A stretch of DNA of 64,000 bases from Rhodothermaceae bacterium (GTDB taxonomy: Bacteria > Bacteroidota > Rhodothermia > Rhodothermales > Bin80), in NCBI GenBank assembly GCA_009838195.1, contig VXSC01000008.1, positions 1 to 64,000 on the forward strand, in the 5' to 3' direction. The position numbers and the translations under genes are program-made. Under the pieces are notes generated by a model. The model did not search any database. It was given only the letters and a program-made list of their open reading frames with translations, and was not told the DNA's origin. Shown here in pieces: positions 39,646 to 50,527 of this stretch (its first letter is position 1; the number at the start of each line of letters is the position of its first letter).

Positions 39646-41529
39646 TCAGCCGAAGCCAACAACTCCACGGCGGCCAATCACTACGTAATCAAAGATGATG
39701 CGGGTAAACACAATCGCACTAAAGAGCGACGCCAAAATGCCTGCCATCAGAGTCACCGCAAAACCCTGAATCGGACCAACCCCGAATGAATAGAGAATGA
39801 TGCCTACGAAAAAGGTCGTAATATTGGCATCCACAATCGCGCTGAGCGCTTTGCCATAACCACCGTCAATGGACGCTTTCAGTGTTTTCCCGGTAGATTG
39901 CTCTTCACGTACACGCTCAAAGATCAACACATTTGCATCAACTGCCATACCAATCGTAAGAACGATCCCCGCAATACCAGGTAAGGTTAACGTCGCGTTG
40001 AATCCCGCTAGAATGCCCAGGATAAAGATGATGTTGATAATCAATGCGAGGTCAGCAACCATCCCCCCTCCCCGATAATAGATAATCATAAACAGGGCCA
40101 CGATAGAGAGACCAAACAGAAGCGACGTGAAGCCAGATCTTCGAGCGACAATGCCCAAGCTTGGGCCCACCGTCCGCTCTTCAACAATCTCCACAGGTGC
40201 GGGAAGTGCTCCACTCTTGAGTACTGTGACTATATCATCGGATTCCTCCTGTGAAGCCAACCCTGTAATTTGGGATCGTCCGCCACTGATCTGGCCAATG
40301 ACCGTTGGGTACGAGTACACGACACGGTCAAGAACGATAGCTACGTTCTTACCTACATTGGCACCGGTAATACGAGACCATACTCGAGCTCCTTCGGAGT
40401 TCATTTCCATATCAACGAGCGGTTGGTTTGTGGTCTGGTCAAAATCGGCTCTAGCGTCTGTAATTACATCTCCCGTCAATTCGGCATTTACATTGACTGC
40501 CAATACCGGATAATACTCTGCCCCTCCTGTGCCACTGGGGTTTGCATCATAAAGCAGCTCGATATCGCGTGGAAGCATTGCCTGTACTTCTGGATCTGCC
40601 ATCAACGAATTGAAGATAGCGGTATCCTGCACCGATACTTCACCGAAGACTACAGAACCTTGACCAGCTGGAATCAGAACATCCAAAAGCGGATTCCCCA
40701 CATCGTCCAAGCCTTCCGTTTCCGCGAGTAACTGACTGACATCAAAGGACGTATCTGCTTCCTCGGAGGTGTCCTCTTCTGCAGGAGTTTCTACGGAATC
40801 TGCCTCAGCTGCTACATCTACTTCATAGTAACTGATGATCCGTTGCAAGGACGAATTCAACTCACCCGGATCCGCCATAAGCCGAAATTCCAACCTTGCC
40901 GTCCCCTTGAGCAGGCGGCGCACACGCTCAGGATCATCTATGCCTGGCAATTCAACCACAATCCTTCGGCTGCCCTGCGTCTGAATAGAGGGTTCTGTGA
41001 CTCCATACCGGTCGACACGGTTACGAATGACCTGCATGGCACGCTCGATCGCCTCCAATGCCTGCGTATTCAAATAATCGGTCACTTCTGCATTACTGGA
41101 ACGTCGGGTGATCTCTTCACTACGAAAGTAGCGCGATAGGCTCGCGTCGGGATCACGACTTTCAAACTCCTCCACAAACGCATCAATCAGCGAGATGCCT
41201 TCTGCTTCGGTGCGCACATCTGCTGCCACAAGAACCTGATCAAACATGTCATCCCTGCGCTCTCCCGCCAACTGAACGAGTAATTCCCTGAGTCCAACTT
41301 CCATGGTGACATGCATCCCTCCCTGGAGATCTAACCCGAGATTGAGAGATTTTTCCTTGATTGACTCAATCCTGGAATAATTATCGCGCTCATACTCAAC
41401 TCTCTCTTCCAGAGCCATCCCCTCCAATCGGTTGTTCAGGGAAAGTCCCTGGAATGATGGGAATAAGTACCAGGCCGAAAGTGCTAGAAAGAAAACAACT
41501 GCACCTACCTTGAATCCGTTACCTTGCAT
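39646..41529 (-). CDS. secD: Protein-export membrane protein SecD
   Basis: 627 residues. An N-terminal helix is followed by NLGLDLQGGMHVTMEVG (family signature), the large periplasmic P1 region, and the C-terminal membrane part with AGIVLTIGMAVDANVLIFERVREE. The P1 head includes an acidic low-complexity insert, DSVETPAEEDTSEEAD near residue 250, not present in E. coli SecD and likely an unstructured loop. Together with SecF it forms the SecDF motor. The leader upstream contains a terminator-like hairpin at 41554-41574. Confidence 0.95.
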   Translation of the reverse strand: MQGNGFKVGAVVFFLALSAWYLFPSFQGLSLNNRLEGMALEERVEYERDNYSRIESIKEKSLNLGLDLQGGMHVTMEVGLRELLVQLAGERRDDMFDQVLVAADVRTEAEGISLIDAFVEEFESRDPDASLSRYFRSEEITRRSSNAEVTDYLNTQALEAIERAMQVIRNRVDRYGVTEPSIQTQGSRRIVVELPGIDDPERVRRLLKGTARLEFRLMADPGELNSSLQRIISYYEVDVAAEADSVETPAEEDTSEEADTSFDVSQLLAETEGLDDVGNPLLDVLIPAGQGSVVFGEVSVQDTAIFNSLMADPEVQAMLPRDIELLYDANPSGTGGAEYYPVLAVNVNAELTGDVITDARADFDQTTNQPLVDMEMNSEGARVWSRITGANVGKNVAIVLDRVVYSYPTVIGQISGGRSQITGLASQEESDDIVTVLKSGALPAPVEIVEERTVGPSLGIVARRSGFTSLLFGLSIVALFMIIYYRGGGMVADLALIINIIFILGILAGFNATLTLPGIAGIVLTIGMAVDANVLIFERVREEQSTGKTLKASIDGGYGKALSAIVDANITTFFVGIILYSFGVGPIQGFAVTLMAGILASLFSAIVFTRIIFDYVVIGRRGVVGFG

Positions 41530-41574: not shown

Positions 41575-42098
41575 CTATTTCACAGCCCCGTGGAACGCTA
41601 ATCTACCCAAAAAGGTGCCCAATTTCATCAGAGCACTGCGAATATTGAAAAAATTGGTGCAGTCACAGTGATCGATTGTACCTGTCCTTGCAGTTCGTGA
41701 TCTGCCAGGAACTAATCCGGTTTCTACCCAAGAGCATCAGATGACCCAACCGCCGCTTCGTGCGAAACTCCCTGAATTGAGACGATAACTGCCTCTGGAG
41801 GCATTATAGACAGCTTTTCGGTTTTAATGTTACTTGGCAACAAACTTGTTCGGGTTTTTTGCCGCATCTCGGTGTCATGTCCCGTTGCGCACTGACCGTT
41901 ACGTTTCTTTGTGTATTTTCCTGAGAGAATTGCAAAATTTTCTTATGATGTGTATTGAAATATGGTAATCATTGCACCCAGAAAATAACTCGGCTGTTTA
42001 TTACATCTTGAAATGCTAATCAGGTTCAACTACTATACTAATATACCCCGCCGTATCACTGCCGATTGTGCCCCTTAACATCTGGGTATACGCTCTCT
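41575..42098. other. Intergenic region upstream of the helicase operon
   Basis: About 520 bases divergent between secD (minus) and the DrmAB-like gene (plus). It is AT-rich near the operon start, with TATACTAATATA at about 42037-42048 as a possible promoter core. No small gene, tRNA, repeat array or integrase attachment site is seen. The size is generous for a simple promoter and could hold an unannotated regulatory RNA. Confidence 0.4.
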
Positions 42099-45000
42099 AT
42101 GGATTACGTTGAGGCACGAAACCGCTTGGTTGCATGGCTGCGTGAACAAATGATCGGCCCCGCAACCGAAGACGCTGTTGTAAACGAAAACCCACTAAAA
42201 CTTTATCCTGTGGGTGTGCTCAGTCCGACTGAGTCCACTTCAAACCCTCGCATTGATGACCTAAAAGCTATTCACCCGGATGGCCCTTCAAATGCAGAGA
42301 ATGATATAGATGAAGCTCTTTCATATAGACGCTACTATACGGCTCCATCCAGTGTTGGGTTTACTTTCTTTGTGAGCCGTGATGCACAGCTTTCTATTAC
42401 AGTATCTGCAAGCCGTTATAAAAGCCGAGGGGAAAGGGATGAGTCTGGGAGATTTGTTAAGCAGTCCTATAATCGTATAGAGTTGCAACCGTTTGAAATC
42501 ACGATTGATAAGCCTAGTGGCACAATCAAACAAGCAATTTGGGAGAATCGAGCAAGCATTGTATTGGAACCACGCCTACAAACGAATGGAATCCTCTGTA
42601 CATTGGCGCTATCAAATCTCAAAAGGGGTCCAGAAAGCTTGAGGCATTCCGATAAGGCAGAGTTATACCTTTTTGAAGTCCATCTCTGTTGCATCGTTGA
42701 GTCGGGAGATCTCTTAGAGCTCCCCCGCCTTGCTCCATCCATGATGAGCGAGGAAGAGCTTGAACTGGAACTTCAATACAAAGAGAGAAAGATATTCGGT
42801 GTCGGGCATGGCGCTGCGGTAGACTGGAATGTGAGCCCTAGATGTATTACCAAGATCTGGTCAGAGTTTATGCCAGTGGTAGAAACGCCCGCACTATCAA
42901 CGAATCCGCAAGGAGACCATGATGCGCTTGATTTGAAGCGTTTATGCGATGAGGATATTACAACACTCTTAACCACGTTGAGGGATTTTTTGGACGGATA
43001 CGAAAAATGGATTGTTAAGCAACGGAAGATTATTTCGGGGTTTGCTGATGAACTGGAGAGAGAAACAGGGGAACGCATGGTGAAGCGTATGGAAGTTGCA
43101 TTAAAGCGTATGCACCAAGGCGTAGATCTGCTTGAGGATGACGAGTATGTTGCAGAGGCATTTCGCTTGGCAAATCAGACTATGCTGAATCAGATGCAAC
43201 AGGCAGATAGAATTGAGGGACGGGATCCAAGCACAAATAATTACCGATGGAGATCATTTCAGTTAGCTTTTCTTCTGACCGTGCTCGAGTCTGCTGTTCA
43301 GGAAAAAAGCAGCTTTCGAGAAACCATGGACCTCATATGGTTTCCGACTGGCGGAGGGAAAACGGAAGCGTACCTTGGACTCATCGCAATCCTCATTATA
43401 TGGCGCAGGCTTAATTATGGAACGATGGGAGGTGGTACCGTTGCAATCATGCGTTACACGTTGCGACTGCTGACCCGGCAGCAGTTTGAACGTGCTGCTC
43501 GAATGATCTGTGCACTTGAGTTGATTCGCCAAAAAGATAATCGTCTGGAAGAAGAACCGTTTAGCGTAGGATTTTGGGCTGGTACGGCAGTGAGCCCAAA
43601 CACATACGATCAGGCGAAAAAGAAAGTGAAAGCCATTGCGGATGGCAGCAACTCTGAGCGTTTCAACTTTATCCTTACCTCCTGCCCCTGGTGTGGTGAG
43701 GAATTAACAAAATACGGGTACGTGTATACGCCTGACAGTTTCAGGTTTTACTGCACAAATGAATCCAATTGTGATTTTGGAAGACGCCGCGATTCCAAGC
43801 CACAACTCCCACTTCCCTGCCAAGTTGTAGATCATGCCTTATATGATGCTCCCCCATCACTTCTTATTAGTACGATTGACAAGTTTGCCAGACTTCCTTG
43901 GATTGAAGGGCCATACGCTTTCTTTGGCCGCAATACGCGGCGGTCCCCGGAACTCATCATTCAGGATGAACTCCACTTGGTAACTGGCCCTCTTGGGTCA
44001 ATCGCTGGTGTTTATGAGGCAGGGATTGAAACGGTCATCAGGGAACTGGGCGTGAGCCCAAAATATATTGCCTCCACAGCTACAATCAGCGAAGCCCGCA
44101 AGCAGGTTCAGAGCCTATATGGGCGCGACATTGAGGTTTTCCCACCGCCAGGGCTCTCTTGTGACGACATGTATTTTGCTACTACAGATCATAGCCGACC
44201 AGGCCGTAAGTATCTGGGATATCTAGCACCAAATCTCAGTAGGCAAGAAAGCATCAGCCCGATTATGGCCGCACTGATGGCGGCACCAAGTGTTTTATTT
44301 GGGGAAAATCAAAATTTTGCAGATCTGGCAGAGGCGTGGTGGACGATGATTGTATTTAATCGCAGTCTAAGGGATGTGCGCACCTACCATAACGAGGCTT
44401 TCCGTGGTGTGCGAAAGGCAGGAATGAAGTTTGCCAATAAGAATCACTCTCAAAGCGAGAATCATGAGACGCTGGATTCGATTCGTGAGCGATTCCAGAA
44501 GCCTCGCATATCTGAACTCACCAGTCTCAGATCGGCCGAAGATTGTGCCATCACATTCAAGGAGTTAGAACATCCACGAAATCACGCGAAATGCCTTGAC
44601 GTGGTATTTGCAACCAATATGATTTCTGTGGGACTTGATGTTTCGCGGTTGGCCCTGATGGTGGTCAATGGACAACCGCAATCGGCAGGGGAATACATTC
44701 AGGTTACGGGCCGTATCGGACGGGCCGAAGTGCCCGGTTTAGTGATCGTCAATTACTATCGTACACAAGCCCGAAGTCTTGCGCATTACGAAAATTTTCG
44801 ACCATTCCACGAGTCATTCCATCGGTTTGTCGAGACTTCCAGCATCACCCCCTTCACCTATCAGGCACGGAAGCGAGCCCTTCATGCAGCTTTGGTCACC
44901 ACACTTAGGTACCTGTGTAATCATTTGATTGGAAATGCTGGTGCACTTAAAATCGGGGAACAAGAGGAGGAAGAAAGACAGATCTTAACCCAATTAAGCA

Positions 45001-47063
45001 ATCGGTTCACGAACGCATGTCTAGACCCGGTGACACAAACTCAAGTGGATGAGCATCTCAAACGGCTTTATCAAACCTGGTGTGATAAAGCTGAAGAGTG
45101 CAAGAAAAGACGCCGAGAACTGTGCTACTATGTAAGGGATGACCGGAATGATGCTGACCGCCTGCTTAAGAGTGCTGAGTTGTCTGTCAAAGGAGTATGG
45201 GATACATTGAATTCCATGCGAAATGTGGAAGAGTCGGCAAAATTAAATTATGGGCCTCATACGGTAGACGTGCGATTCTCGAACTTGCTGGGTTCATCAG
45301 GAGTCGGCTCCATAGTCCCTATGGGAGAAAATACAGAGAGTTTTAACTCGGTTGTGAAAGACATCACCCTTTGGCCTCAAGATTTACTGCCTGACCAAGA
45401 ACTGAAGTATGTTACTCAGATCAGCAAGCACCCAAATATCAGTAACCGTAGACTTATCAGGCCGCCGGTCCCAATAAAGAGAGATGACAAGTTCACTAAT
45501 TGTATCCCGGCAGAAAAATTTCCACGGTGGTCATATTGTATTAAGTGTGGACTGCTTAGTTATTACTCCCTGACCGTTGCAAATAAATGCCCCGACGAAA
45601 GCTGCGATGGAATCACGAGACAGGTTCATTGGGTTCTCGTACATCGGCAAGGCTTTTTAGCTGATGTGGACTGGCACTATATGGCACATGGGAAAAAGTC
45701 AAAAGATTGCCCCCGCACCAATGATCGGGCCTATCTCAAACTGATTCAGGAACCTAAATACCTAGTCCAGTGCACGAAATGTAATCGCACGGGTTGGCAA
45801 GATATAGCCCAGTTTGGGAGGAAAACGTGGCAACAGCCCTGGGTCCGCGAGCCTGCGGAGGAATTCATTGCCGATAGTATGGCAGAAGTCATGTATATCG
45901 GTGACTCCCGAATGTACCAAGAAGAGAAACACAGATCCCTAGTAATACCACCTGAATCACGCATTAGACGAGGTAGTATCGTTGATCTTCTGTATAGAAA
46001 TAGCGATGATCAACGGAAAATTAACCAAGATCAAACAGACTTTCAGCGTAAAAGCGTGATAAAACGTATTGCAACAAAATATGGATGCGGTCCCAAAGAG
46101 ATCAGAGATGCATTAGCGGAGATTGAACGTGGTTATCCTCTCTATGATGAACAAGTGGGCGCGGATCATCTGATGCAACTTGAATATGATGCACTTTCAA
46201 ATCCCATTCCGGACCAACGGGAGGACGAAGATCTTGTCACGACACATCATACCCTAGAATGGAAAGAACGGAGTGGTGATCATTTGCCTCCTGAAATCGT
46301 GTCGTTGGTTAACAGCTTAGCTGCAGTTGAACGTCTACGAATGGTTTCTGTGTTTTTAGGGTTCAGGCGTGATGCCTTTAGAGATCAATCTAGGGGTAGC
46401 AACATGAAAGGAAGACCCAGTTTGGTACCCCCCGATGTTTTTGGTACTTCTGATTGGCTCCCCGCAGATGAATTATATGGTGAAGGAATATTCTTTACAT
46501 TGAGCGAGCCTTTGCTGCAGGTTTGGGAGGAAAAGGTCCGAATAGCTCGACAAACCGACCGTGAACTGAACAAATTATTGGGGCGGATAGATTCCTCTAT
46601 GAAAGAAAATGACGAGGTGTCGAAAACACCACGGTTTGTACTTTGTCATTCACTATCTCATCTACTGATTCGACAACTGGAGCGCAACTGTGGTTATCCA
46701 TCTGCCTCTCTCAAAGAGCGTATATATGTAAAAGATGGTGAACGTCCCATGGCGGGGATTCTGATTTTTGTCGCTGTTTCTGACAAACATGGCTCGCTGG
46801 GCGGGCTGACGGAATGGGCTCAACCACAAAAATTTTATCGCTTGATTTCACGAGCGTTTGATGCCTCGCAGTGGTGTTCATTTGATCCGGTGTGTTGCAA
46901 TCCAGAAGACAGCAAGCTTGAGCAACTAAACGGAGCAGCGTGTCACGCGTGTCTGATGATCCCCGAGTCAAGTTGCTGCTGTAACAACAAATACCTTGAC
47001 CGAATTCTGATCAATGGAAACGGTAAAACTCTCCCATCACTTCTTGAAATAAACGAACTATAA
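42099..47063 (+). CDS. DrmA-DrmB fusion: giant SF2 helicase with C-terminal DUF1998 domain (DISARM-like)
   Basis: 1654 residues from the ATG at 42099 (a TTG at 42066 would add 11). The first ~1050 residues read as DISARM DrmA: FPTGGGKTEAYLG at 415, MRYTLRLLTRQQFERA, a zinc ribbon from C529/C532, DELH at 623-626, ASTATIS, FATNMISVGLDVSRLALMVVNG and QVTGRIGRA at 868. From about residue 1060 it reads as DrmB: GVGSIV, IPAEKFPRWSYCIKCG with further Cys pairs, then DUF1998 with CHSLSHLLIRQLERNCGYP, GILIFVAVSDKHGSLGGL and a Cys-rich end (NGAACHACLMIPESSC). In DISARM, DrmA and DrmB are separate and form a complex that targets unmodified phage DNA; a fusion is consistent with that. Two more genes follow with 4-base spacing and an 8-base overlap. 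Confidence 0.85.
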   Translation: MDYVEARNRLVAWLREQMIGPATEDAVVNENPLKLYPVGVLSPTESTSNPRIDDLKAIHPDGPSNAENDIDEALSYRRYYTAPSSVGFTFFVSRDAQLSITVSASRYKSRGERDESGRFVKQSYNRIELQPFEITIDKPSGTIKQAIWENRASIVLEPRLQTNGILCTLALSNLKRGPESLRHSDKAELYLFEVHLCCIVESGDLLELPRLAPSMMSEEELELELQYKERKIFGVGHGAAVDWNVSPRCITKIWSEFMPVVETPALSTNPQGDHDALDLKRLCDEDITTLLTTLRDFLDGYEKWIVKQRKIISGFADELERETGERMVKRMEVALKRMHQGVDLLEDDEYVAEAFRLANQTMLNQMQQADRIEGRDPSTNNYRWRSFQLAFLLTVLESAVQEKSSFRETMDLIWFPTGGGKTEAYLGLIAILIIWRRLNYGTMGGGTVAIMRYTLRLLTRQQFERAARMICALELIRQKDNRLEEEPFSVGFWAGTAVSPNTYDQAKKKVKAIADGSNSERFNFILTSCPWCGEELTKYGYVYTPDSFRFYCTNESNCDFGRRRDSKPQLPLPCQVVDHALYDAPPSLLISTIDKFARLPWIEGPYAFFGRNTRRSPELIIQDELHLVTGPLGSIAGVYEAGIETVIRELGVSPKYIASTATISEARKQVQSLYGRDIEVFPPPGLSCDDMYFATTDHSRPGRKYLGYLAPNLSRQESISPIMAALMAAPSVLFGENQNFADLAEAWWTMIVFNRSLRDVRTYHNEAFRGVRKAGMKFANKNHSQSENHETLDSIRERFQKPRISELTSLRSAEDCAITFKELEHPRNHAKCLDVVFATNMISVGLDVSRLALMVVNGQPQSAGEYIQVTGRIGRAEVPGLVIVNYYRTQARSLAHYENFRPFHESFHRFVETSSITPFTYQARKRALHAALVTTLRYLCNHLIGNAGALKIGEQEEEERQILTQLSNRFTNACLDPVTQTQVDEHLKRLYQTWCDKAEECKKRRRELCYYVRDDRNDADRLLKSAELSVKGVWDTLNSMRNVEESAKLNYGPHTVDVRFSNLLGSSGVGSIVPMGENTESFNSVVKDITLWPQDLLPDQELKYVTQISKHPNISNRRLIRPPVPIKRDDKFTNCIPAEKFPRWSYCIKCGLLSYYSLTVANKCPDESCDGITRQVHWVLVHRQGFLADVDWHYMAHGKKSKDCPRTNDRAYLKLIQEPKYLVQCTKCNRTGWQDIAQFGRKTWQQPWVREPAEEFIADSMAEVMYIGDSRMYQEEKHRSLVIPPESRIRRGSIVDLLYRNSDDQRKINQDQTDFQRKSVIKRIATKYGCGPKEIRDALAEIERGYPLYDEQVGADHLMQLEYDALSNPIPDQREDEDLVTTHHTLEWKERSGDHLPPEIVSLVNSLAAVERLRMVSVFLGFRRDAFRDQSRGSNMKGRPSLVPPDVFGTSDWLPADELYGEGIFFTLSEPLLQVWEEKVRIARQTDRELNKLLGRIDSSMKENDEVSKTPRFVLCHSLSHLLIRQLERNCGYPSASLKERIYVKDGERPMAGILIFVAVSDKHGSLGGLTEWAQPQKFYRLISRAFDASQWCSFDPVCCNPEDSKLEQLNGAACHACLMIPESSCCCNNKYLDRILINGNGKTLPSLLEINEL

Positions 47064-47067
47064 TTGT

Positions 47068-48246
47068 ATGCAGACCCGTAAATGGAAACTGCCTGGGGTG
47101 CAGGATCTGACGAAGGATCAGGAGGCAGCACTAGCATACTCGGCCAAGGGACAGCATCTTGTCATTGGTGGCCCCGGTACAGGCAAGACAGTGGTTATGG
47201 TGATGCGAGCAATACAGCTCCGAAGACAAGGTACGAAACATGTTTTCCTGGTGTACAATCACATGCTGCATCAAGCAAGCCAACAGATGGCGGGAGAGCC
47301 GTTTACAAGCTCCACATATATGTCCTGGTTCTGCAAAAAATTCAGGGAAATTACAGGCGAATATGTGCCTAACTTAAAGCCATATGAATATGATTGGACG
47401 GCATGTGTAAGTATAGCAAGTGAGATATCAGGGAAACACATTTCATTGAACGAGAAAGAACTCCTCATCATTGATGAAGGGCAGGATATGCCTCCGGGCT
47501 TCTATGAAACACTGATTTACCTTGGTTATGAAAACTTTTTCGTTGCGGCGGATCAGAATCAACAGATCTGGGGAGATCGTAACAGCAGTCGTCAAGATCT
47601 TGAGGATGTACTTGCAATTGATACCACAGATGTAATAGAACTCAAACACAATTTCCGAAACAATTATGGAATTGCTCGCCTAGCGCGGGCATTCTATACC
47701 GGTGATCCGGCTAGCCCCCCACCTAAACTACCAGACCAACAAAGAAGAATCTATGTCCCGATACTGTACACCTTTCAGAATCAACCGGGGGTATACATTG
47801 GAATCGCAAAAAAAATCATCAAGTTCTTCCTCCGTGATCGTCAAAAACTCATTGGCGTGATTACGCCAAATCACCGTGTTCGGAAAAAATATTTAGATGC
47901 CTTAAAGGAGTCCGCGGTTTTGCTTAGCGAAAATTCCGTAAAGATCTATACTTATGACTCCGAGAATAAGCATGTCCGATTTGATGAGGGATGTATTGTA
48001 GTTCTCAACGCTCAATCATGCAAGGGACTTGAGTTTGATGCCGTCGTTCTGGCTGACATTCATGAACACTTCATCCACCGTGACGACCGGGATGCGACCA
48101 AAAAGTTGTTTTATGTGATGGTTTCGAGGGCATGTGATGCAGTATTTCTGCTAATGAAGGATGACTCCTCTAATCAAATTCATGACATCCTGCCAAAGGA
48201 TGTATCTGTGTTACAACGCAAGAAAATTGCCGCCTCCCATGCCTAA
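47068..48246 (+). CDS. Compact UvrD/Rep-like superfamily 1 helicase
   Basis: 392 residues. Motifs in order: Q-motif-like LTKDQEAAL, Walker A GGPGTGKT at 34-41, Walker B IIDEGQD at 134-140, motif III AADQNQQIW at 160-168, LKHNFRNN (motif IV), NAQSCKGLEFD (motif V) and FYVMVSRA (motif VI). This is about half the length of UvrD, so the 1B/2B inserts are small or missing and unwinding may need partners. It begins four bases after the DrmAB-like gene and overlaps the next gene by eight bases, so the three are co-expressed. A role as the nucleic-acid motor of a defence complex is inferred from context. Confidence 0.85.
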   Translation: MQTRKWKLPGVQDLTKDQEAALAYSAKGQHLVIGGPGTGKTVVMVMRAIQLRRQGTKHVFLVYNHMLHQASQQMAGEPFTSSTYMSWFCKKFREITGEYVPNLKPYEYDWTACVSIASEISGKHISLNEKELLIIDEGQDMPPGFYETLIYLGYENFFVAADQNQQIWGDRNSSRQDLEDVLAIDTTDVIELKHNFRNNYGIARLARAFYTGDPASPPPKLPDQQRRIYVPILYTFQNQPGVYIGIAKKIIKFFLRDRQKLIGVITPNHRVRKKYLDALKESAVLLSENSVKIYTYDSENKHVRFDEGCIVVLNAQSCKGLEFDAVVLADIHEHFIHRDDRDATKKLFYVMVSRACDAVFLLMKDDSSNQIHDILPKDVSVLQRKKIAASHA

Positions 48247-49414
48247 ATCACATTCAATAGACTCAGGACTGTTCGTTACAAATCATTTGAACCTGATGTT
48301 CTGCTTTGCTTCTGGATTCATCACCCCGCCGTCTGGATTCGGAGACAAATACTATCAAGACACCCTCGGTGTACAACCTGGATCAATCCCACTCTTTATT
48401 AACAAAGTCCCACAAAGTGCGATTGACCTATCTGTGGAAGAAGCAGCACATCTAATTCCAATCATCGCAGAAATTAATCTCACAGATCTTGAACTGTCTG
48501 CCCCCATTCGACAACTTCAATTATTCGAACCTCTACCTCCGAAAAAGAAAACTCAAAAATCTGTCACGTTTGCACGCGCTCCTATTTCAATCACACGAAT
48601 TCTCCGAGTCTATGTTAAATCAGACAAAACACGTGAGGAAGTTCTAAGTCAGGTACAACTTCGAAATAATGTCCCTCTAAAGCCTGGAATCATAAAACGT
48701 AGAAAGACATCCTTTACCACGGCGTTAAAGAAATGGACTTGGAAACAAAACAATCAAACAGAAGAAGTAGACCCGCCTATCCTTCTTGCCCAAGCTTCAG
48801 GAGGAATTCTTGCAATGTTGAACCATGTAAAGGATAGAAGCATGGCTGCTAAGAAAGCATTTTCATCGGCGTTTGAAATTGAGTCTACAGATCCTCCCAT
48901 ACCGGGCCTTAGCGAGTGGATAGAAAAAGGTCACATTGTACCATGGACAGAATCAGAGGAAGGCTATCTGCTGTGGAGTCTCGTAGAGAAATTGGCTACG
49001 CATCGGGACAATAGCAACGACAATGATTTGGACGAATTAGTCCTTCATTTCCTTGAAAATCTTCCAGCGAAAATTCATCACCGAACTCTTCCTCTTTGCA
49101 AAACGTTGTTAGAACTCGGTGGGCTTGGTGGATCCACGATACCTGAATATTTTAATTTGCACACAGACCCACTGGGACGGGCGGTCATTCTTTTTTTCCT
49201 GCGTCGCCAATGTCGAGAGTTGTTGGAATTTGACCAAGCAATAATGACCGACCATGACTGGGCATATTCAGCGATTCTTTTTGGAGCTCGTTCTGGTTGG
49301 TTGCGACTGTCTCTAGAATTACGCAGCGACGAAAACTTGGGAGACAAGATTTGCGACTGGATGACTTCTTATTGCCATCGAATAGAAAATATCAAGACTC
49401 CAATGTCGCACTGA
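48239..49414 (+). CDS. Unrecognised third protein of the helicase operon
   Basis: 391 residues from the ATG at 48239, which overlaps the helicase stop by eight bases; a longer frame from 48161 lies wholly within the helicase gene and is rejected. I recognise no domain. The N-terminal third is hydrophobic and beta-like (LMFCFASGFITPPSGFGDKYY, GSIPLFINKVP). A basic stretch follows (PPKKKTQKSVTF, IIKRRKTSFTTALKKW) that could bind nucleic acid. The C-terminal half looks helical with many Leu (LPLCKTLLELGGLG, ILFFLRRQCREL). No signal peptide or clear membrane helix. Coupling to the helicases suggests a subunit, regulator or effector of the same system. Confidence 0.6.
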   Translation: MPKSHSIDSGLFVTNHLNLMFCFASGFITPPSGFGDKYYQDTLGVQPGSIPLFINKVPQSAIDLSVEEAAHLIPIIAEINLTDLELSAPIRQLQLFEPLPPKKKTQKSVTFARAPISITRILRVYVKSDKTREEVLSQVQLRNNVPLKPGIIKRRKTSFTTALKKWTWKQNNQTEEVDPPILLAQASGGILAMLNHVKDRSMAAKKAFSSAFEIESTDPPIPGLSEWIEKGHIVPWTESEEGYLLWSLVEKLATHRDNSNDNDLDELVLHFLENLPAKIHHRTLPLCKTLLELGGLGGSTIPEYFNLHTDPLGRAVILFFLRRQCRELLEFDQAIMTDHDWAYSAILFGARSGWLRLSLELRSDENLGDKICDWMTSYCHRIENIKTPMSH

Positions 49415-49465
49415 ACCCTGATTGAACCCATCAGTAACAAAGCCCGAACTAACTGAACGACCAAA

Positions 49466-50527
49466 GTGAAAAAACTTAAAGTACTTGTAGCTGGCTGTGG
49501 CCACATGGGGACCTCCCATGCACGCGCTTACCACTCCATGGATGCCTTCGAAATCGTTGGGCTTGTGAGTCGTACATCTTCATCTCGTAATCGACTCAGT
49601 GAAGAACTAGGCGGACTGCATACATATGCTTCATTTGAACATGCACTAGCCGCTACCACTCCCGACGTTGTCTCTATCAACACGTATCCTGATACCCACG
49701 CCAAATACGTACAAATGAGCCTTGAGGCAAATTGCCATGTATTTGTGGAGAAGCCTCTTGCTGAAACTGCAGAAGAAGCCCAGTCGCTCGTTGATCTGGC
49801 CAAAAAGACAGATCGAAAAGTCGTGATTGGATATATCCTGCGTGTACACCCGGCCTGGAAGAAATTTATTTCTCTCGCACAACAATTGGGGAAACCCCTA
49901 GTCATGCGCATGAACTTAAATCAGCAAAGTAGTGGCGCTCAGTGGGGTACGCATCGGAAATTAATGGATTCTATGTCCCCGATCGTAGACTGTGGGGTTC
50001 ACTACGTAGACGTAATGTGTCAGATGACCCGTGCCCGTCCAGCAGCTGTTAACGCCATCGGAGCGCGACTATCAGATGAAATCGCGCCGGAGATGTACAA
50101 CTATGGACAACTTCAGGTATTCTTTGATGATGGCTCTGTTGGTTGGTATGAGGCTGGTTGGGGCCCAATGATGAGTGAAACCGCTTCATTTGTGAAGGAC
50201 GTGGCTGGCCCTCTCGGCTCTGTGAGTATTATTGATGAGGTAAAAGAGCAGACCGATGATATCGAAGGGCACACTCAAACAGGTGGGTTCAAAGTCCATC
50301 ATAGCAGCCGAGGCGAAGACGGACACTTCGACCGTCCTGACGAATTGATTGATACGTCGGATGAGCCCTCACACGATGAGTTGTGTGCCCTGGAGCAGGA
50401 ATTCCTGCTCCGTGCAATTCAAGAGGATCTTGACCTGACGGACCATATGCAAGATGCCGTCAGCAGCCTAAAGATCGTACTCGCAGCCGACCAAGCTGCA
50501 CGTGAGCGGCGTACGGTTACATTCTAG
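49466..50527 (+). CDS. Gfo/Idh/MocA-family NAD(P)-dependent oxidoreductase
   Basis: 353 residues from a GTG at 49466. No ATG lies upstream of the Rossmann motif VAGCGHMGTSHARA, so GTG is well supported. EKP, the family's catalytic/nicotinamide-site motif, is in VFVEKPLAET. A later conserved His is in VDCGVHYVDVM. The enzyme probably oxidises or reduces a sugar, inositol or related polyol; the substrate is not evident. It starts 51 bases after the helicase operon with no hairpin visible, but its ordinary metabolic nature suggests it marks the right border of the inserted operon. Confidence 0.88.
   Translation: MKKLKVLVAGCGHMGTSHARAYHSMDAFEIVGLVSRTSSSRNRLSEELGGLHTYASFEHALAATTPDVVSINTYPDTHAKYVQMSLEANCHVFVEKPLAETAEEAQSLVDLAKKTDRKVVIGYILRVHPAWKKFISLAQQLGKPLVMRMNLNQQSSGAQWGTHRKLMDSMSPIVDCGVHYVDVMCQMTRARPAAVNAIGARLSDEIAPEMYNYGQLQVFFDDGSVGWYEAGWGPMMSETASFVKDVAGPLGSVSIIDEVKEQTDDIEGHTQTGGFKVHHSSRGEDGHFDRPDELIDTSDEPSHDELCALEQEFLLRAIQEDLDLTDHMQDAVSSLKIVLAADQAARERRTVTF

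Follow-up and report, generated by a model that had tools for sequence, protein, structure and literature searches.

The window analysed here, 64,000 nucleotides of contig VXSC01000008.1 from a Rhodothermaceae bacterium, carries on its forward strand a three-gene operon with homologues of DrmA and DrmB, two proteins of the defence island system associated with restriction-modification (DISARM). The first gene encodes both as a single fusion protein (DrmAB), and its open reading frame (ORF) runs from 42066 (TTG) or 42099 (ATG) to 47063; the ATG corresponds to the residue aligned to the start of the homologue in G014, a genome of the same family and a different genus. After a gap of 4 bases follows the gene for a compact superfamily 1 (SF1) helicase of the UvrD/GajB-like type (392 residues; 47068–48246). 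The third gene, ORF3 (391 residues; 48239–49414), overlaps the end of the helicase gene by 8 bases. The ORF calls thereby confirmed the tight coupling of three genes that the original prediction, made from the sequence alone, had placed at 42099–49414. Family scans of the window covered the operon proteins and the two flanking genes.

The DrmAB fusion and the compact SF1 helicase

Numbered from the TTG start, DrmA, a superfamily 2 helicase, occupies about residues 12–1062 and DrmB residues 1068–1665. The DrmB part ends in an MZB/DUF1998 zinc domain, of which MZB lies above the Pfam cut-off. The predicted identity of the fusion was borne out by PADLOC (DrmA, E 2.8e-193; DrmB, E 1.4e-57), by the NCBIfam family DrmB_fam (318.7 bits; cut-off, 240) and by the solved DISARM structure PDB 7s9v (E 8.2e-128 for DrmA, 7s9v_A; E 2.7e-52 for DrmB), while the NCBIfam DrmAS match, at 793.8 bits, falls under its cut-off of 950. 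The helicase motifs are present at residues 429 (GGGKT), 633 (QDELH), 670 (STAT) and 879 (QVTGRIGR). No C-terminal nuclease domain was found in the fusion, which ends 16 residues past the DrmB match (1649 of 1665).

The second protein matches UvrD and AAA_19 in Pfam, as expected of the predicted compact SF1 helicase, and its helicase motifs are conserved in an alignment of SF1 helicases. No relatives were found in phages at E 1e-5, nor among 600 pattern stretches from virus contigs. The two Photobacterium SF1 helicases (L020 and L035) bear an insert of about 70–80 residues after the first helicase motifs.

Pfam, PADLOC and NCBIfam revealed neither a methyltransferase nor DrmC (phospholipase D type) or DrmD (SNF2 type; class I DISARM) among the operon proteins, as had been claimed. 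DrmC was also not found in the whole genome, by a search that had no positive control; no genome-wide search for DrmD was made.

Recurrence of the triad and its NERD partner

For the proposed gene-neighbourhood search for the triad, each species was represented by a single genome and six aligned SF1 helicases of the operon type served as the query; the best 80 of at least 225 relatives were kept. The SF1 helicase gene lies directly after that of DrmB in 79 of the 80 kept loci, a fraction that is biased upwards since operon members made up the query. Of the 80 loci, 78 have DrmA. The less biased test on plasmids yielded six records matching the SF1 helicase, and in four of them (two from Photobacterium, one each from Deinococcus gobiensis and Streptomyces fungicidicus) the helicase directly follows DrmA-DrmB. 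The other two, from Cupriavidus and Nostoc, have the helicase without DrmAB alongside, by annotation. The exception among the genome loci, L064, has the SF1 helicase and ORF3 and no DrmA or DrmB match upstream.

An ORF3 homologue was detected by BLAST in 66 of the 80 kept loci. Nine further loci have size-matched ORFs at the same place that can be aligned with ORF3, one of them (L109) loosely; the remainder are four Streptomyces loci with other small ORFs and one where the contig ends. The kept loci, many of which are metagenome bins, span about eleven phyla according to record titles and tree labels, including Pseudomonadota, Acidobacteriota, Gemmatimonadota, Thermodesulfobacteriota, Myxococcota, Actinomycetota, Bacteroidota, Chlorobiota, Chloroflexota, Planctomycetota and Lentisphaerota, among others. 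Given this recurrence in genome loci and plasmids, the gene order is not a product of chance. Text searches of the open-access literature brought up no description of the gene set, although a search of open-licence papers only is weak evidence of absence.

A counterpart is in G014, where the same fused triad occurs with a DrmAB 58% identical over residues 9–1663 and an ORF3 44–46% identical. DrmA and DrmB form a single ORF in the window and in G014, but not in any of the 80 genome loci. The fusion is present in the window as the original prediction stated; as far as searched, it is a local trait.

Beside the operons of the relatives we observed a gene of about 530 codons ('gene 5'), whose product combines a NERD nuclease domain with an SF1 helicase. 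The representative in L039 matches Pfam NERD at 1.1e-9 and the PADLOC reverse-transcriptase-associated NERD helicase at E 1.2e-48. Such a NERD-SF1 gene accompanies 56 of the 80 kept loci, downstream of the operon in 42 and upstream in 14; of the 24 loci without it, five have less than 1 kb of contig beyond the operon. No NERD-SF1 gene stands beside the operon in the window or in G014, and gene 5 as a query gave weak matches only in the window's own genome. NERD itself was detected there in one 672-residue protein on contig C22 and in one weak match. The C22 protein is not gene 5, because it has no other Pfam or PADLOC match. The triad recurs widely as a unit, but since 56 of the 80 relatives add the NERD-SF1 nuclease-helicase, it is the short version of a system of four to five genes rather than the complete set.

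Two further arrangements were seen among the relatives. At L067 (2518–8151), a NERD nuclease, a protein kinase and DrmA share one frame of 1877 residues, with the NERD and kinase parts ahead of DrmA. In 13 actinobacterial loci (L034, L097, L098, L102, L106–L108, L110–L112, L114, L115 and L117), a member of one protein cluster with sigma-70 domains lies near the operon; its Pfam domains were checked in L034 (3136–6957).

Phylogeny of DrmA

The DrmA tree, built by a quick method with an arbitrary root, contains 94 rows. The 76 triad rows include 74 of the 84 loci tried, the other ten having been dropped for a DrmA match of at most 850 residues or none. A branch with a Shimodaira-Hasegawa-like approximate likelihood ratio test (SH-aLRT) value of 98 sets all 76 apart. 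On its other side, the seven DISARM DrmA rows group together (SH-aLRT 99), accompanied by eight DrmAs associated with NERD and three others.

In three genomes of the same genus (G003, G008 and G009; loci L026, L030 and L031), BLAST identified DISARM with DrmD, a methyltransferase and DrmC. The DrmA of these genomes is 31–32% identical to that of the window, or 34–35% over a matched stretch.

These data bear on whether the window operon is a decayed DISARM that has lost drmM, drmC and drmD. DrmA and DrmB are indeed its best-matching families, and normal DISARM exists in the three genomes of the same genus. However, the gene order is common to 79 kept loci of many phyla, the triad's DrmA is on a branch separate from that of DISARM, the frames are open and the helicase motifs are present. 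Owing to the separate branch and the recurrent gene order, we rejected decay as extremely unlikely, in agreement with the original view of the operon as a candidate for an undescribed system.

Insertion site and mobility

The operon is flanked on the left by secD (39646–41529, reverse strand) and on the right by a gene for a Gfo/Idh-type oxidoreductase (49466–50527, forward strand; Pfam), both housekeeping genes outside the system. The alignment with the sister species G001 covers both the secD flank and the Gfo/Idh flank, but positions 41634–49467 of the window are missing there, and 266 bp stand in their place. The operon thus occupies 7.8 kb that are not in the sister species, and the empty site verifies the earlier suggestion of a cassette inserted between housekeeping genes. 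In other genomes of the genus, the two flanks are on separate contigs and uninformative about the site. G005 has, on contig C15 between secD and Gfo/Idh (L153, 3341–5612), 2.27 kb of other DNA without long ORFs, in which some short ORF translations are alike, as if repeated; tblastn gave no match of note to triad remnants in it. The G014 operon follows a transposase-like ORF, which appeared IS30-like when read by eye. With an empty site in G001, a copy next to a transposase-like ORF in G014 and copies on plasmids, the operon is mobile.

This mobility also bears on a housekeeping role. PMC12458937 states that YprA-family helicases act in repair, and the operon consists mostly of helicases, so that a DNA-repair or housekeeping operon of the MrfAB/YprA type deserves consideration. 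Its nearest match, however, is DISARM DrmAB, and among the 99 genomes searched, only that of the window and G014 have a full-length match to the fusion, and 9 have any match at all. Together with the mobility of the operon, this makes a repair function quite improbable.

Predicted folds and residues of ORF3

ORF3 belongs to no PADLOC or NCBIfam family, and its Pfam match to the ADP-ribosyltransferase (ART) family 2CompART is weak and below the cut-off (0.014; 0.0039 for a relative). No matches were found in plasmids by tblastn at E up to 1, and among 247 genomes of the phylum only the window itself and one match at E 0.009 were detected.

The AlphaFold2 model of ORF3, computed from 58 alignment rows, reached a mean predicted local distance difference test (pLDDT) score of 89.9 and a predicted template modelling (pTM) score of 0.91. 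In the model, residues 3–160 resemble Thermus DarT (7omw; VIA Z 11.2, root mean square deviation (rmsd) 3.8, 146 residues aligned), while residues 180–386 resemble ARH3 (6g1q; Z 13.8, rmsd 3.8, 203 aligned). For the latter part, the top 19 structure rows are ADP-ribosylhydrolases (ARHs) by title, one of them named poly(ADP-ribose) glycohydrolase. For residues 3–160, Foldseek gave a best E of 2.0e-3, with none below 1e-3. The ARH half is mostly helical and its score should be read with care, as helical folds can reach about Z 13 through a common arrangement, according to the tool's own warning.

For this reason, we also modelled the Nocardioides relative L104, which is 18% identical to the window ORF3 (mean pLDDT 81.4, pTM 0.72; residues 1–101 below 50). 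Along its chain, too, a match to DarT (Z 10.5) is followed by one to ARH3 (Z 15.0), with a best Foldseek E of 3.4e-3. Its C-terminal part, residues 480–593, has no counterpart in the window ORF3 and gave no structure match; the window protein lacks a C-terminal part of about 130 residues that most relatives have. Both models suggest that ORF3, which had been called a protein of unknown type, combines recognisable folds, DarT-like ART and ARH3/DraG-like ARH. The assignment comes from structure comparison, as the sequence profile alignments between ORF3 and DarT or ARH are weak, with probabilities below 7%; two divergent DarT-family sequences aligned to nine others gave 42% as a yardstick.

The catalytic residues are harder to place. 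The invariant Glu of the (A/S)E motif in 11 DarT-family sequences falls on ORF3 column 109, where 1 of 58 rows has Glu, in an alignment whose register is unsure (probability below 3%). In the same weak alignment, column 107 is Glu in 21 and Asp in 11 of the 58 rows, and Lys in the window. ARHs bind metal through the motifs TDD and DxD (GGDTDT). No conserved TDD is present in the 58-row ORF3 alignment, whereas one weak profile alignment places D338 and D340 on the DxD, and 47 and 51 of the 58 rows, respectively, have an acidic residue there; in L104, one of the two positions aligned to DxD, again weakly, is acidic. ORF3 has its own conserved set, comprising N18 and D41 (58/58 each), N15 and E68 (56/58 each) and T14 (53/58). 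The activity of ORF3 is uncertain; it could be a pseudo-enzyme or a sensor, or else an enzyme whose chemistry has changed.

Its role may be that of a mark, a toxin with its antidote, or a sensor. ORF3 could be a DarT-like effector restrained by its ARH-like half, with DrmAB and the SF1 helicase releasing the ART upon invasion to ADP-ribosylate DNA or a cellular target and cause abortive infection. The predicted ART-ARH architecture in two distant members, the acidic pair at 338 and 340 and an annotated DarT-family gene at the end of an Azospirillum DrmAB operon are consistent with this idea, but the near absence of Glu from column 109, in its unsure register, and the Lys of the window at the otherwise often acidic column 107 speak against it, and we regard it as unlikely. 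Alternatively, ORF3 might take the place of a methyltransferase by adding ADP-ribose to DNA and removing it, so that the DrmAB motor recognises either self or invader by this mark; this is rather doubtful, although slightly raised by the possibly retained ARH metal motif.

Proposed DNA-structure sensing and the sparing of self DNA

According to PMC9142583, a trigger loop (176–232) closes the DrmAB of DISARM and admits 5'-tailed single strands, and V1296 contacts a base and was proposed as a methylation sensor. The window protein has, at the trigger-loop position, a mildly acidic loop of 39 residues, 8 of them acidic and 4 basic. Among the 55 of 76 triad rows measurable by motifs, the loop has a median length of 42 (range 21–71), and the median is also 42 in the seven DISARM rows (range 5–61); loss of the trigger loop was therefore rejected. 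V1296 aligns with V1054 of the window, and this position is Val in 69 of the 76 triad rows, the remaining seven lacking the motif.

From the computed gene set, recurrence, clade, folds and insertion site, we infer, with a probability of roughly 55%, a mobile anti-phage or anti-plasmid DrmAB system that is distinct from DISARM and senses DNA structure. DrmAB would load on invading DNA with single-stranded 5' ends, and displacement of the trigger loop would open it. Self DNA would be spared mainly by its structure instead of by methylation from an enzyme of the operon. The compact SF1 helicase would act as a second motor alongside DrmAB, and ORF3, as regulator or effector, might link the complex to the chemistry or binding of NAD+ or ADP-ribose. 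The NERD-SF1 protein would be the nuclease in most relatives, and the window version, which does without it, might work through blocking and unwinding or by way of ORF3.

Several observations weigh against such a system. The window operon contains no nuclease, and the canonical catalytic residues of ORF3 seem only partly kept. The candidate methylation-sensing valine is retained. A search of the window's own genome with PF00145 and PF02384 detected three N6 methyltransferase matches (C10, C36 and C5) and, on contig C18, two genes for C5 methyltransferases, all off the window's contig C8. Furthermore, 12 of 85 loci contain a gene of one C5-methyltransferase-like BLAST cluster, and 3 of 76 flank ORFs sampled from 369 match cytosine-methyltransferase models, DrmMII included. 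Across these 76 ORFs, 194 PADLOC models have at least one match, a count of models and not of ORFs.

Methyl marks might hence be supplied in trans by host methyltransferases, making the system a DISARM with its methyltransferase elsewhere. The C5 and N6 methyltransferases of the genome, the retained base-wedging valine and the C5-methyltransferase-like genes near some operons favour it. Those genes, however, lie 0.4–8.2 kb outside the operon and are possibly parts of unrelated restriction-modification systems, and 73 of the 85 loci have none of that C5 cluster, other methyltransferase families not having been sought there. We consider marks in trans possible though improbable. As the operon encodes no methyltransferase, a filter for DNA structure is the simplest way to spare self DNA.

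For DISARM, the question is on what basis DrmAB leaves self DNA alone and what weight methylation carries, and a widespread DrmAB family whose operon encodes no methyltransferase makes it directly testable. The family also links DrmAB defence with ADP-ribosylation folds, as well as with NERD helicases of a family that is known in defence systems with reverse transcriptases too.

Comparison with known systems

MrfAB repair includes the exonuclease MrfB, and no such gene is present in the operon or its two flanks. ARMADA types I and II share a YprA-family helicase with the triad, and type II has a GajB-like helicase; as PMC12458937 describes them, they differ in their BrxHII and PglX methyltransferase genes and C-terminal Vsr nuclease, none of which was found in the window operon. 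A BrxA-like insert is a further feature of the ARMADA YprA helicase. A Vsr nuclease would have no room in DrmAB, because the protein ends so soon after its DrmB match.

The predicted fold of ORF3 residues 3–160 is shared with DarT of the DarT/DarG system. DarG has a macrodomain. The second half of ORF3 is instead predicted to have an ARH fold, and the invariant Glu of DarT was not seen at the weakly aligned place. The triad operons, defined as sampled by DrmAB and the SF1 helicase, differ from RTasNERD-Hel of the defence-associated reverse transcriptase (DRT) systems in PADLOC, although no search was aimed at a reverse transcriptase; the likeness is in gene 5 of the relatives, which in L039 matches RTasNERD-Hel over its length.

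Plasmids of Rhizobiales and Azospirillum (L121, L128, L130 and L023) carry a large UvrD gene, DrmA, DrmB and a NERD helicase, an arrangement for which no system name was found. As in the triad, no methyltransferase lies between the genes, and one operon (Azospirillum) has a DarT-family gene. However, the larger UvrD gene ahead of drmA replaces the compact SF1 helicase, there is no BLAST match to ORF3, and the DrmAs are on the other side of the tree branch. L130 and L023 have C5-methyltransferase-like genes nearby.

Finally, the window operon resembles DISARM in that DrmA and DrmB are homologous over most of their length and keep the helicase motifs, the valine equivalent to V1296 and a loop where DISARM has its trigger loop. 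According to PMC12458937, no branch other than DISARM has DrmA and DrmB consistently as separate genes. The two are fused in the window, and DrmA is on a separate branch. Unlike DISARM, the window operon dispenses with the methyltransferase, DrmC and DrmD, and the triad adds an SF1 helicase and a putative ART/ARH protein, joined in many relatives by the NERD-SF1 nuclease-helicase.

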